A stretch of DNA of 64,000 nucleotides from Aminobacterium mobile DSM 12262 (lineage in GTDB: Bacteria; Synergistota; Synergistia; Synergistales; Aminobacteriaceae). The DNA is taken from contig NZ_JAFZ01000002.1 in the NCBI RefSeq assembly GCF_000526395.1, positions 312,501 to 376,500 of the forward strand, given 5' to 3'. How positions within the stretch are numbered: position 1 is the stretch's first letter; every line of letters begins with the position of its first letter. Position numbers and translations under genes: made by a program. The notes below the pieces were generated by a model. It was not told the DNA's origin and made no database searches. It saw only the letters and a list, made by a program, of their open reading frames with translations. Below, in pieces: positions 346 to 11,337 of the stretch.

Positions 346-375
346 TTGACAGAACACTAAGGATATTGCTATGGT
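346..375 (+). promoter_or_regulatory. Candidate sigma-70 promoter of the trp leader
   Basis: TTGACA (346-351) matches the -35 consensus exactly. It is followed after 18 bases by TATGGT (370-375), a 4/6 match to the -10 box. Transcription would begin near 382, at the first ATG of the leader peptide, so the mRNA could be leaderless or nearly so. An AAGGA sequence (359-363) ahead of a 4-codon ORF at 371 is the alternative if transcription starts farther upstream. Confidence 0.5.
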
Positions 376-381
376 ATCTCC

Positions 382-450
382 ATGAAAAAAACAATGAAAC
401 ATCTCAGAGATTTTAATTCTATCAATAAGTTCTGGTGGTGGCGCTGTTAG
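382..450 (+). CDS. trpL: trp operon leader peptide (22 or 18 aa, three consecutive Trp codons)
   Basis: A short ORF begins at ATG 382 (22 residues) or in-frame ATG 394 (18 residues). It ends ...INKFWWWRC before TAG at 448-450. Three successive TGG codons (433-441) lie in the 5' arm of a hairpin that precedes a Rho-independent terminator, directly upstream of trpB. This is the hallmark of transcription attenuation by ribosome stalling on Trp codons when charged tRNA-Trp is scarce. The ORF has no strong Shine-Dalgarno. A start at 382 would coincide with the predicted transcription start. The peptide itself is not expected to have a function beyond sensing. Confidence 0.8.
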   Translation: MKKTMKHLRDFNSINKFWWWRC

Positions 451-514
451 CGCCGCCGCAGGTATGGCCTGATTTTTCAGGGGCTGCGGGGCAAAAAACC
501 GCAGCCCCTTTTCT
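433..514 (+). promoter_or_regulatory. trp attenuator: pause, antiterminator and terminator hairpins
   Basis: Arm 1 (437-444, GGTGGCGC) overlaps the Trp codons and pairs with arm 2 (450-457, GCGCCGCC) around a 5-base loop containing the leader stop codon. Arm 2 can instead pair with arm 3: GCC-G-CCGCAG (452-461, bulged G455) against CTGCGGGGC (484-492). If arm 3 is free it forms the terminator GGGGCTGCGG (480-489)/CCGCAGCCCC (499-508), followed by TTTTCTTTT. The 1:2 / 2:3 / 3:4 choice is that of enterobacterial trp attenuators. A ribosome stalled at 433-441 would mask arm 1, allow 2:3 and permit transcription into trpB. Confidence 0.8.
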
Positions 515-551
515 TTTGATCTATCGCTATCTTTTACAGAGTTCGAAGAAA

Positions 552-588
552 GGGGCTTCTTCCCAAAAAGGAAGAGGTCCCTTTTTTT
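552..588 (+). terminator. Second terminator-like hairpin just upstream of trpB
   Basis: GGGGCTTCTTCC (552-563) pairs over 12 positions (two G-U) with GGAAGAGGTCCC (570-581) around CAAAAA, and is followed by seven Ts. It lies only ~10 bases before the trpB ribosome-binding site, so any transcript must read through it. It may be a second attenuation step or the landing site of another control. Confidence 0.7.
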
Positions 589-613
589 ATATAAAACAAG
601 GGAGGTATTGTTC

Positions 614-1789
614 ATGAAACAGAATAAGAAAGGATTCTTTGGAGAATATGGTGGTAGTTTTGTGTCGGAAGCATTGCAATCTCGCCTCAATGAGCTGGAA
701 AAAGCTTATGAGGACGCCCGTCATGATCAATCTTTTGCCGAAGAATTTACAACGACTTTAAAAGAATATGTGGGGAGGCCATCGGCTCTTACAGAGTGTA
801 AAAATATATCAAAATACTTTGGGGGAGGACGACTATTTCTGAAACGAGAAGATCTCAATCACACTGGCGCCCACAAAATAAATAATGCGTTAGGACAAGC
901 TCTTCTAGCTAAACGTATGGGGAAAAAGGAACTCATAGCAGAGACAGGTGCTGGAATGCACGGCACAGCCAGTGCCACCGTAGCGGCTCTTATGGGAATG
1001 AAGTGCACTGTATATATGGGAGCTCTTGATGTAGCTCGCCAAGCCCCGAATGTAGCCCGTATGAAAGTATTAGGAACAGAAATTATAGCTGTAGAGGAAG
1101 GACAGAAAGCTCTTAAAGAAGCCGTTGATGCAGCTCTGAAAGCTTTTGCAGAACGACCTGAAACTTTCTATTTGTTAGGTTCAGCTGTAGGACCTCATCC
1201 TTATCCTACTATGGTTCATGATTTTCAAAGTATTATCGGTAAAGAGGCAAGACAACAATTTCTGGACCGCGAAGGTACATTACCAAACTATGCTTTGGCC
1301 TGTGTAGGTGGTGGAAGTAACGCTATTGGTCTTTTTGCAGGTTTTCTCAACGACTCGGACGTGAAGTTGTTCGGAGTGGAACCAGCCGGGAAGGGGTTGG
1401 CCTCTGGGGAGCATGCAGCTACATTGTCTGTAGGGAAACCATCTATTATTCATGGGTTCAAGAGTTACGTACTTACAAAAGAAAACGGGGAACCAGCCAA
1501 TGTATACTCTATATCAGCAGGGCTTGATTATCCTGGCGTTGGCCCAGAACACGCCTATTTGAAAGACAGCGGTCGGGTAAACTATGTGTCTGTCACAGAT
1601 CAAGAAGCCATTGATGCCTTTAAACTGCTCTGCCAAAAAGAAGGGATCATCCCCGCTCTTGAAAGCTCTCATGCGTTAGCCTACGCTTTTAAACTACTTC
1701 CCAAACTTACCCGGAGGGAAAGTATCCTCGTCAATCTTTCTGGGCGAGGAGACAAAGATATGGATGCGATCCTTCCTCTTCTTAAATGA
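614..1789 (+). CDS. trpB: Tryptophan synthase beta subunit (stand-alone)
   Basis: TrpB is a PLP enzyme that makes L-tryptophan from indole and L-serine. The protein is 391 residues, the usual TrpB1 length. It opens with GFFGEYGGSFV, the family signature. The PLP-lysine motif HTGAHKINNALGQ and the phosphate-binding loop GGGSNAIG are present, as is GAGMHGTASATVAA. ATG 614 follows GGGAGG (599-605); an upstream in-frame TTG at 608 lies too close to that site. No trpA or other trp gene adjoins, and a terminator and a convergent LysR gene follow. This suggests indole salvage or a dispersed pathway. The preceding Trp-codon leader indicates attenuation control. Confidence 0.95.
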   Translation: MKQNKKGFFGEYGGSFVSEALQSRLNELEKAYEDARHDQSFAEEFTTTLKEYVGRPSALTECKNISKYFGGGRLFLKREDLNHTGAHKINNALGQALLAKRMGKKELIAETGAGMHGTASATVAALMGMKCTVYMGALDVARQAPNVARMKVLGTEIIAVEEGQKALKEAVDAALKAFAERPETFYLLGSAVGPHPYPTMVHDFQSIIGKEARQQFLDREGTLPNYALACVGGGSNAIGLFAGFLNDSDVKLFGVEPAGKGLASGEHAATLSVGKPSIIHGFKSYVLTKENGEPANVYSISAGLDYPGVGPEHAYLKDSGRVNYVSVTDQEAIDAFKLLCQKEGIIPALESSHALAYAFKLLPKLTRRESILVNLSGRGDKDMDAILPLLK

Positions 1790-1800
1790 AAGAAACTTTA

Positions 1801-1837
1801 ACGGCACGTTCTCGCATTATGAACGTGCCGTTTTCTC
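1801..1837 (+). terminator. Rho-independent terminator after trpB
   Basis: ACGGCACGTTC (1801-1811) pairs with GAACGTGCCGT (1821-1831) and runs into TTTTCT. It overlaps the end of the convergent LysR gene and probably serves trpB. Confidence 0.8.
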
Positions 1838-2740
1838 ATTTATAAAGCGAGAAGAAAGAGTACGAAGCCACGTCATCATATGTTGAAAAAGTCTGCTTCG
1901 ATACTGCTCCGGCAAAGAAATAATACGAAACCATCTTGTTATAATAAGGTCCGTAGCAACCTCTTCCAAACGTCCATCTAATAATTCCTCCTCTACTGCC
2001 ATACGTGAAAGACAGCTCAACCCCATACCAGCCTCTACTGCTCGCTTAATAGCCTCAGTGTGCCCAATCTCTTGTACGTTATGCAAGCGAATGTTTTTAT
2101 GAGTCAACGCTGCTTCAAATGTACTCAAAGTACCAGAACCTCGCTCTCTCAAAATCCATTGTTCATTAGCTATCTCTTTTACAGAAACCACGGGACGAGC
2201 CCCAGCAAAAGAATGGGAAGGCGACGCTATTATCACCAGTTCATCCCGAAGCCATTCTTCTTCATATAAGTCACAGCCGTCTATAGCTCCTTCCACTAGG
2301 CCTATATCCAGAGCCCCCTCTCGAACAAGATTTGCAATTTCTTTAGTATTGCCTACATTTAAAGTCACCTTTACTTGGGGATTTTCCTCGCAGAAAATCT
2401 TCAGCCACGAAGGGAAAAAATAATTTCCTATAGTTGTACTACACCCTATGAAAAGTTCCCCTGTTAAATCTCCTTCTTCACTTTTAGCCATATCCACTAA
2501 TTCTCTAGCTGAAGCAAGAATCTTCTCTGCTTCAGGAAACAGCATCCGCCCACGATCATTTAAAACCAGCCCTCTTCCTACTCGATGAAAAACAGGGCCT
2601 CCTATAATTCTTTCGAATTCTCTTAAAGCCATACTCGCCGCTGATTGACTTATAAAAAGTGTTTTAGCAGCCCTCGTTAAATTTTCATAACGCGCTATTT
2701 GCACAAAAATTTCTAATTGGCGAAATGTCATTATTTCCAT
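1817..2740 (-). CDS. LysR family transcriptional regulator
   Basis: The product has 307 residues, typical for LysR. The N-terminal winged helix-turn-helix is recognisable (MTFRQLEIFVQIARYENLTRAA..LFISQSAASMALREFE). A periplasmic-binding-protein-like effector domain follows from about residue 95. It starts at ATG 2740 behind GAGGT; ATG 2731 is an alternative. It is divergent from the UPF0324 permease gene, sharing a 128-bp intergenic region with an inverted repeat, so it likely controls that permease and itself. In other bacteria UPF0324 (YeiH) genes often sit beside a LysR gene (YeiE); assignment to that subgroup is inferred from context. Confidence 0.9.
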   Translation of the reverse strand: MEIMTFRQLEIFVQIARYENLTRAAKTLFISQSAASMALREFERIIGGPVFHRVGRGLVLNDRGRMLFPEAEKILASARELVDMAKSEEGDLTGELFIGCSTTIGNYFFPSWLKIFCEENPQVKVTLNVGNTKEIANLVREGALDIGLVEGAIDGCDLYEEEWLRDELVIIASPSHSFAGARPVVSVKEIANEQWILRERGSGTLSTFEAALTHKNIRLHNVQEIGHTEAIKRAVEAGMGLSCLSRMAVEEELLDGRLEEVATDLIITRWFRIISLPEQYRSRLFQHMMTWLRTLSSRFINEKTARS

Positions 2741-2764
2741 ACTTAAACCTCATTCATCATTTTT

Positions 2765-2802
2765 ATTGATTGAAATTATCATAATAATAAGCTGGAATCA
2801 AT
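2765..2802. promoter_or_regulatory. Inverted repeat in the LysR/UPF0324 divergent promoter region
   Basis: ATTGATT (2765-2771) and AATCAAT (2796-2802) form a perfect 7-bp inverted repeat with 24 bases between arms. It lies between the two divergent starts. It is a plausible operator for the adjacent LysR protein, but no binding consensus was tested. Confidence 0.35.
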
Positions 2803-2871
2803 AATACAGTCTGGTTATAGTATGTTGCATCTACGTTGGAATTTATCATAATTTAAAGGGGTTATACTTTG

Positions 2872-3810
2872 ATGATAATACTTCAATCTCCATATTTCTG
2901 GATCATAACAAGCTTAGCATTAACTCTCTTAACAAAGTCTCTTGCCATTGCTCTCTGTTTTGGAAGTGCCATTGCTCTTTTATGGGGAAATCCTGCCAAA
3001 AAAGTTACGGGGATGCTGTCAAAATATCTTCTGCAACTTGCTGTTATTCTCTTTGGGTTCGGTTTGCAGCTTAATGTTATATTGAAAGTCGGCTATTCTT
3101 CCATAGGCATTACTTTTTTCAGCATTTCCACAACACTTTTTCTAGGTTGGGTTTTAGGAAAATTATTTAAAGTGGAGCGGAGTGTTTCTATTCTCATCAG
3201 CAGTGGTACGGCTATTTGCGGTGGAAGCGCTATTGCAGCTATGGCTCCTGCTATTGGCGCGTCTCAGGGACAAACCGCTATTGCTATGGCTGTGGTCTTT
3301 TTACTCAACGGAATTGCCCTTCTCGTCTTTCCCCATTTGGGGCACCTTATAGGCCTTAATCAAGCTGACTTCGGGGTGTGGGCCGCATTGGCTATTCATG
3401 ATACAAGCAGCGTAGTAGGGGCAACCGCTATTTACGGAGCAGAGGCTCTGGCTATTGGCACAACTATAAAACTCACACGTGCCCTATGGATATTACCCCT
3501 TTCTTTTTTAGGGGCGAAGCTTAACAAAAGTGATAGCAAGGCAAAGGTGCCGTGGTTCTTATTTGGCTTCCTTCTTGCAGCTCTGATCCGTTCCCTCTTC
3601 CCAGGGATGGAGGACCTATGGCATCTGTTGGCTATAAGCGGTAAAAAGCTTATGGTTACAACTCTCTTTTTTGTTGGAGCCGGTCTCACTAGAGAAGATC
3701 TAAAAAAAATAGGCGGAGGATCATTGCTGAAAGCAATAACATTATGGATTCTTGTTTCCCTTATCTCTCTTACCGTAATAAGACTGGGGCTCATTAAGCT
3801 CCCAGTCTAA
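2872..3810 (+). CDS. UPF0324 family membrane permease (YeiH-like)
   Basis: A strongly hydrophobic protein of about 312 residues with ~9-10 membrane segments. The motif ISSGTAICGGSAIAAMAPAI near residue 110 and the IHDTSSVVGAT segment near residue 180 are characteristic of the conserved membrane family PF03601 (YeiH, a putative anion/sulfonate exporter). ATG 2872 and the in-frame TTG 2869 both follow AAAGGGG. It is divergent from a LysR gene that probably regulates it. The substrate is not experimentally secure in this family; export of an inorganic sulfur anion is a guess. Confidence 0.85.
   Translation: MIILQSPYFWIITSLALTLLTKSLAIALCFGSAIALLWGNPAKKVTGMLSKYLLQLAVILFGFGLQLNVILKVGYSSIGITFFSISTTLFLGWVLGKLFKVERSVSILISSGTAICGGSAIAAMAPAIGASQGQTAIAMAVVFLLNGIALLVFPHLGHLIGLNQADFGVWAALAIHDTSSVVGATAIYGAEALAIGTTIKLTRALWILPLSFLGAKLNKSDSKAKVPWFLFGFLLAALIRSLFPGMEDLWHLLAISGKKLMVTTLFFVGAGLTREDLKKIGGGSLLKAITLWILVSLISLTVIRLGLIKLPV
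3781..3808 (+). terminator. Hairpin at the end of the UPF0324 gene
   Basis: AGACTGGG (3781-3788) pairs with CCCAGTCT (3801-3808), overlapping the last codons. It lacks a clear T-run, so its terminator role is uncertain. Confidence 0.4.
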
Positions 3811-11182: not shown

Positions 11183-11204
11183 ACATATATATTCCCGCGA
11201 GAAG

Positions 11205-11312
11205 AAAGGATCCCGAGCTTGATAGCCTGCATTCTATAGAGAACATGGCTTCAAGCCTATAGGGCGTAGCGGGAAACTGCTGCGCCTCCCGCGTTTGGAA
11301 AGGAATCCCTTA
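11205..11312 (+). promoter_or_regulatory. Moco/Tuco-type riboswitch (molybdenum or tungsten cofactor RNA)
   Basis: A compact ~105-base fold precedes the aldehyde oxidoreductase gene. GGATCC (11209-11214) pairs with GGAATCC (11302-11308, one bulge) as closing stem. GCC...CTATAG...GGCT-TCA-AGCC-TATAG...GGC forms a nested arm, and GCGGGA (11269-11274)/TCCCGC (11287-11292) a second. The GCGCCTCCCG near the 3' side resembles the conserved end of the Moco RNA motif. Genes for W/Mo enzymes are established targets of this RNA class. Identification is by eye from remembered consensus plus context. Confidence 0.55.
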
Positions 11313-11337
11313 CTATAAACTAAGGAGGGAGAACTAT

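Follow-up and report, generated by a model that had tools for sequence, protein, structure and literature searches.

A probable ribosome-mediated tryptophan attenuator with two serial terminators upstream of the stand-alone trpB of Aminobacterium mobile and its Synergistota relatives

The stand-alone trpB gene of Aminobacterium mobile DSM 12262 is almost certainly controlled by attenuation at the tryptophan codons of a short leader peptide, and the sequence case for this claim is strong. The best explanation of the region as a whole, which we consider very probable, is a ribosome-mediated tryptophan attenuator in which a relay of alternative RNA pairings acts on an indole-salvage trpB; the relay is a well-supported hypothesis, argued from comparison of related leaders. 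The window (the whole 64,000-nucleotide stretch of DNA that was analysed) comes from a 2.1 Mb genome of the phylum Synergistota that is 99.7% complete. Its relevant features are as follows.

start at 295, minus strand: short NADPH-dependent FMN-reductase-like ORF, which opens the window
346–375, plus strand: predicted sigma-70-type promoter, TTGACA (346–351), 18-nt spacer, TATGGT (370–375), 10/12 match in a consensus scan
382–450, plus strand: trp leader peptide ORF, MKKTMKHLRDFNSINKFWWWRC*, 22 codons, from the sequence and comparison with relatives
435–459, plus strand: hairpin 1:2, arms 435–445 / 449–459, from folds; takes in the Trp codons and the stop codon
452–492, plus strand: antiterminator 1, pairing 2:3, arms 452–472 / 477–492, from the fold and the cross-genus swap test
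479–517, plus strand: terminator 1, pairing 3:4, arms 479–489 / 499–509, with a U-rich tail, from folds and covariation
503–557, plus strand: proposed antiterminator 2, pairing 4:5, arms 503–519 / 543–557, from the fold, swap test, covariation and flank test
546–592, plus strand: terminator 2, pairing 5:6, arms 546–563 / 570–587, with a U tract, from the fold and hairpin search
600–605, plus strand: trpB Shine-Dalgarno sequence GGGAGG, from the sequence
614–1789, plus strand: stand-alone trpB, 391 aa (TIGR00263)
1800–1836, plus strand: hairpin followed by TTTTCTC, read in the sequence 3′ of trpB

The initial annotation had placed an attenuator at 382–514. The elements it named do lie there, but that span is too short, and the real one runs from the promoter through terminator 2 to the trpB ribosome binding site.

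The window trpB scores 573 bits against TIGR00263 (cut-off 392). The hairpin and TTTTCTC at 1800–1836 appear to close a one-gene trpB transcription unit, beyond which a LysR-type regulator gene lies on the opposite strand. Window positions 1817–3810 hold a YeiE-like LysR gene, which adjoins trpB, and a divergently oriented YeiH-family (TIGR00698) transporter gene; at locus L002 a LysR-like gene likewise adjoins trpB. Elsewhere in the window, a Moco (molybdenum/tungsten cofactor) riboswitch (RF01055, 77.8 bits) occupies 11199–11321 of the plus strand.

The description of trpB as a lone gene holds well beyond its immediate surroundings: trpA, trpC and trpE (PF00290, PF00218 and PF04715) were found in none of the three genomes of the genus, which are about 99% or more complete, and trpB is the sole tryptophan synthesis gene found in the genus among the genes searched. 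Since the pathway genes have been lost, trpB is probably an indole-salvage enzyme, and the lone TrpB would probably join salvaged outside indole and serine into tryptophan. Tryptophanase is also absent from the three genus genomes searched. The stand-alone residues of LBCA-Res6 (PMC11917138) were considered as an explanation of the lone TrpB and rejected, with about 1/6 matching in a hand alignment to 5ey5. A conserved loop of the active site carries Met in the lone TrpBs, reading ETGAGMHG(T/V) in 50 of 51 rows (window, L001–L011, L023 and L111–L145), and Gln in operon and other TrpBs (ETGAGQHG, 89/93); a Met-type TrpB paralog adjoins trpBA in L013 and L014 and is also present in L016.

The leader ORF ending NKFWWWRC is present as first described, with its three Trp codons at 433–441 and its stop codon at 448–450. 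The −10 element, which has a TG one base upstream of it, ends 6 nt 5′ of the leader ATG, so that from the usual distance between −10 and +1 transcription is predicted to begin on the A of that ATG. A start beyond 441 had been named as an argument against attenuation, and the predicted start lies instead at the leader ATG. On this promoter prediction the leader of the window genome is likely to be leaderless. Such a start has a precedent in Sinorhizobium meliloti, whose trpL transcript begins at the leader-peptide AUG (PMC7298713). Eighteen of the 48 leaders compared (~40%), this one among them, have 6–7 nt between the −10 element and the ATG and a promoter match of at least 9/12; the remaining leaders mostly have 15–50 nt there, several with Shine-Dalgarno-like sequences.

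Downstream of the Trp codons, all the pairings of the mutually exclusive 1:2, 2:3 and 3:4 set, which ends in a terminator as previously noted, could be located. Their predicted energies in the window are −23.0, −23.8 and −24.9 kcal/mol, respectively, and TTTTCTTTT directly follows the 3:4 stem. The leader folds more stably than its dinucleotide shuffles (z about −5, 0/200). The folds, the swap test and covariation in 3:4 agree on mutual exclusion, with the Trp codons inside segment 1. Footprint geometry also fits the classical mechanism: segment 2, which starts at about 451, stays exposed when a ribosome stalls on the Trp codons and is covered when the ribosome stands on the stop codon, as that mechanism requires.

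The leader is conserved wherever this type of trpB occurs. Of the 185 Synergistota genomes searched, 46, from 27 genera, have TrpB of the window type (at least 63% identity). We oriented the 520 bases upstream of each trpB and scanned them for short ORFs in which Trp codons stand side by side; relatives might have lacked the Trp codons or the complementary arms, and instead all 46 genomes carry a leader ORF with 2–4 consecutive Trp codons near its end (for example ..FWWWRS, ..MWWWWP and ..WWRGF). Outside this Trp-codon end the peptides are not conserved. Two loci from other searches (L012 and L023) also have a WW leader, and with the 46 genomes they make up the 48 leaders; three further rows, giving 51, duplicate listed genomes. 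An ORF of 10–60 codons with WW near its end was found in 49 of the 51 real rows and in 16 of 2040 (0.8%) dinucleotide-shuffled trpB upstream regions, and no WW leader ORF was found in the 10 forward-strand operon-type trpB upstream regions tested. Synergistota with the full tryptophan pathway have the lone trpB in addition to a trp operon, and at six loci (L177, L179, L180, L181, L183 and L034) a trp operon has its own NWWW(R/Q)A leader (ends ..NWWWRAY and ..NWWWQAF) followed by two tandem terminators, the first gene being trpE, trpD or trpC.

The second terminator is nearly as widespread as the leader. It is a GC-rich hairpin whose U tract in the window stops a few bases 5′ of the trpB ribosome binding site, and an intrinsic terminator thus precedes a tryptophan biosynthetic gene, as expected of a trp attenuator. 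Both terminators were recovered by automatic search in 43 of the 48 leaders. With strong hairpins defined by a threshold of −14 kcal/mol, at least two with a U tail are present in 43/48 leaders vs 3/384 shuffles, and the hairpins carry U tracts in most leaders. The five single-terminator leaders (L131, L134 and L137–139) are closely similar and belong to one lineage. A consensus scan found no promoter-like site between terminator 1 and trpB in the window, and so trpB transcripts should have to pass both terminators.

The two terminators may not be independent. Taken with its U tract, segment 4 (the 3′ arm of terminator 1) has a sequence complementary to segment 5 (the 5′ arm of terminator 2), as in L003, where CCCTTTTTCTTTA pairs with TAAAGAAAAAGGG, and in L140, where CTCTTTTGTTT pairs with AAACGAAAGAG with one G-U. 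Because the terminators resemble one another, we chose a swap test in which non-overlapping arms were exchanged between genera, with one representative per genus. Pairing 4:5 gave z −4.7 (median permutation P < 0.002) and the positive control 2:3 gave z −8.0; no signal came from two controls, 2:5 at z +1.1 and 2:6 at z −0.2, and a weak one from the control 3:6 (z −2.7). The 4:5 signal may be partly compositional, given the shared G-rich 5′ arms, the U tails and the 3:6 signal. Covariation was counted on an alignment of 29 sequences (A1), where 4:5 has 19 double-change cells vs 6.8 in shuffles (0/500) and 85% of cells are paired, values that drop when the helix is slid; 3:4 likewise shows compensatory double changes. 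Relatedness inflates these double-change counts, and the swap test takes one sequence per genus. RNAalifold on a MAFFT alignment recovers 3:4 only, since divergence among the leaders is too great and helices that conflict cannot appear side by side; pairs were therefore counted on named helices. All 43 arm 4–arm 5 segments fold as 4:5, with at least six expected pairs and a mean of −15.5 kcal/mol. The complementarity is located at the bases of the stems (z −2.2) and, marginally, in the flanks (z −1.8, P 0.04). The inner stems show none (z +1.5), a pattern that speaks against the simple copying of a single hairpin. In the sequences compared, then, 4:5 complementarity exists above the controls, and on balance we favor the coupling of terminator 2 through it.

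If so, the leader would operate as follows. RNA polymerase would begin at or beside the leader AUG, and a ribosome would translate the 22 codons. With ample charged tRNA-Trp, this ribosome would reach the stop codon and cover segment 2, so that 3:4 (terminator 1) forms; with segment 4 thus occupied, segment 5 would be free for segment 6, and 5:6 (terminator 2) would form, so that polymerase meets two active stops one after the other. With tRNA-Trp uncharged, the ribosome would halt on UGG UGG UGG and leave segment 2 free to form 2:3, and segment 4, free in its turn, would capture the emerging segment 5 (4:5), disarming both terminators. The proposed six-segment relay would thus have 1:2, 3:4 and 5:6 with both terminators on in the absence of a stall, and 2:3 and 4:5 with both off upon one. 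Pairing 5:6 is usually stabler than 4:5 (mean −23 vs −15.5 kcal/mol), and so 4:5 must act kinetically, by forming first.

That stability difference also suits a simpler reading, a classical single attenuator whose second hairpin is uncoupled and acts either as a fail-safe terminator with a constant efficiency or as a structure that stabilizes or marks the trpB mRNA at its 5′ end. Hairpins close to a ribosome binding site can protect mRNA, and five leaders do without the second hairpin; however, the complementarity of 4:5 exceeds that of arms swapped across genera and is accompanied by compensatory changes, U tracts are present in most leaders' hairpins, and an uncoupled strong terminator just 5′ of the ribosome binding site would cap trpB expression in all conditions. 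We therefore judge the uncoupled hairpin to be the less likely reading, though one with an appreciable chance of being right. More improbable is that the leader product acts mainly in trans, like the S. meliloti rnTrpL sRNA and peTrpL peptide, with attenuation in cis secondary. The S. meliloti trpL/rnTrpL system resembles the present one in trp attenuation and in a start at the leader AUG, which is predicted here, and differs in its single terminator, its trpE(G) target and its demonstrated trans functions (PMC7298713). The probably leaderless start recalls S. meliloti, and termination here would release transcripts roughly 130 and 210 nt long, but the peptides vary outside the Trp-codon end, no trans target is known, and the leaders found adjoin trpB or trp operons.

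Regulation by another tryptophan sensor (T-box, TRAP or TrpR), with the WWW ORF incidental, is very improbable. The genus does have one TrpR-family gene, but the TrpR-family proteins of Synergistetes have been assigned to HisR (PMC9413887); no TRAP was found in the genus, the leader has no T-box or other known riboswitch or Rfam family match at gathering score, and the WW leader is invariant. The idea that the ORF is a coincidence next to an unremarkable intergenic terminator might draw on the 30 TGGTGGTGG sites in the genome, none of which, by inspection of ORF ends, marks an obvious second trp-like leader; the 46/46 conservation and the 0.8% chance rate refute it, and its probability is close to nil. 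Tryptophan attenuation with the proposed relay is thus the reading that we prefer.

Comparison with known systems is informative in placing this leader. Like E. coli trpL (RF00513), it encodes a short peptide whose tandem Trp codons fall within segment 1, and it has exclusive 1:2, 2:3 and 3:4 pairings and a terminator 5′ of the first gene; unlike trpL, it has two serial terminators linked, as we propose, by 4:5, a lone trpB and probably a leaderless start. Of the Enterobacteria-type ribosome-stalling mechanism originally suggested, attenuation therefore stands and the simple Enterobacterial design does not. Membership in Rfam RF00513 (Trp_leader) was also tried and rejected: the covariance model does not hit the leader at gathering score or even at E ≤ 10, and 12 related loci gave no hit either. 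Though outside that family, the Synergistota leader to all appearance works like a trp attenuator.

The suggestion that the mechanism occurs in a distant phylum is supported for Synergistota, but trp attenuators outside Proteobacteria, as in Actinobacteria, were already on record in passages of PMC1262725. According to these, Corynebacterium and Streptomyces have classical attenuators, and C. diphtheriae has candidates on two trp operons that each start with a trpB; their trpB sits in operons, unlike that of the window, and an antiterminator and a terminator are the hairpins described in the passages drawn on, which do not mention a second terminator. Salmonella mgtCBR likewise has two attenuation devices in one leader but uses two ORFs and two signals (PMC3641672), where the Synergistota leader has one of each. 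The rimP leader of some Gammaproteobacteria has tandem terminators with an antiterminator on the upstream one, and the parts of its description used here do not mention a leader peptide or amino-acid signal (PMC2965389).

The Salmonella his attenuator is likewise a six-segment domino of pairings, with A:B, C:D and E:F set against B:C and D:E. There the terminator is E:F only, whereas in the Synergistota leader both 3:4 and 5:6 are terminators. In the open-access papers searched, neither trp attenuation in Synergistota nor a single Trp-codon leader that sets two serial terminators was found described, and on that scope the novelty of the double-terminator leader is provisional. For the full picture, in which one Trp-codon stall flips two serial terminators, the leader is leaderless in this genus, and the relay serves both salvage trpB and full trp operons, we put the chances at about even.

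These findings add the phylum Synergistota, across which the leader is conserved, to the known range of trp attenuation, and attach it to a trpB that is probably kept for indole salvage after the rest of the pathway was lost. The proposed relay would be a natural example of a design that lets the position of a single ribosome set two consecutive terminators. If it is true, two 10%-leaky terminators would allow about 1% basal read-through, and the dynamic range could be widened without a protein regulator.
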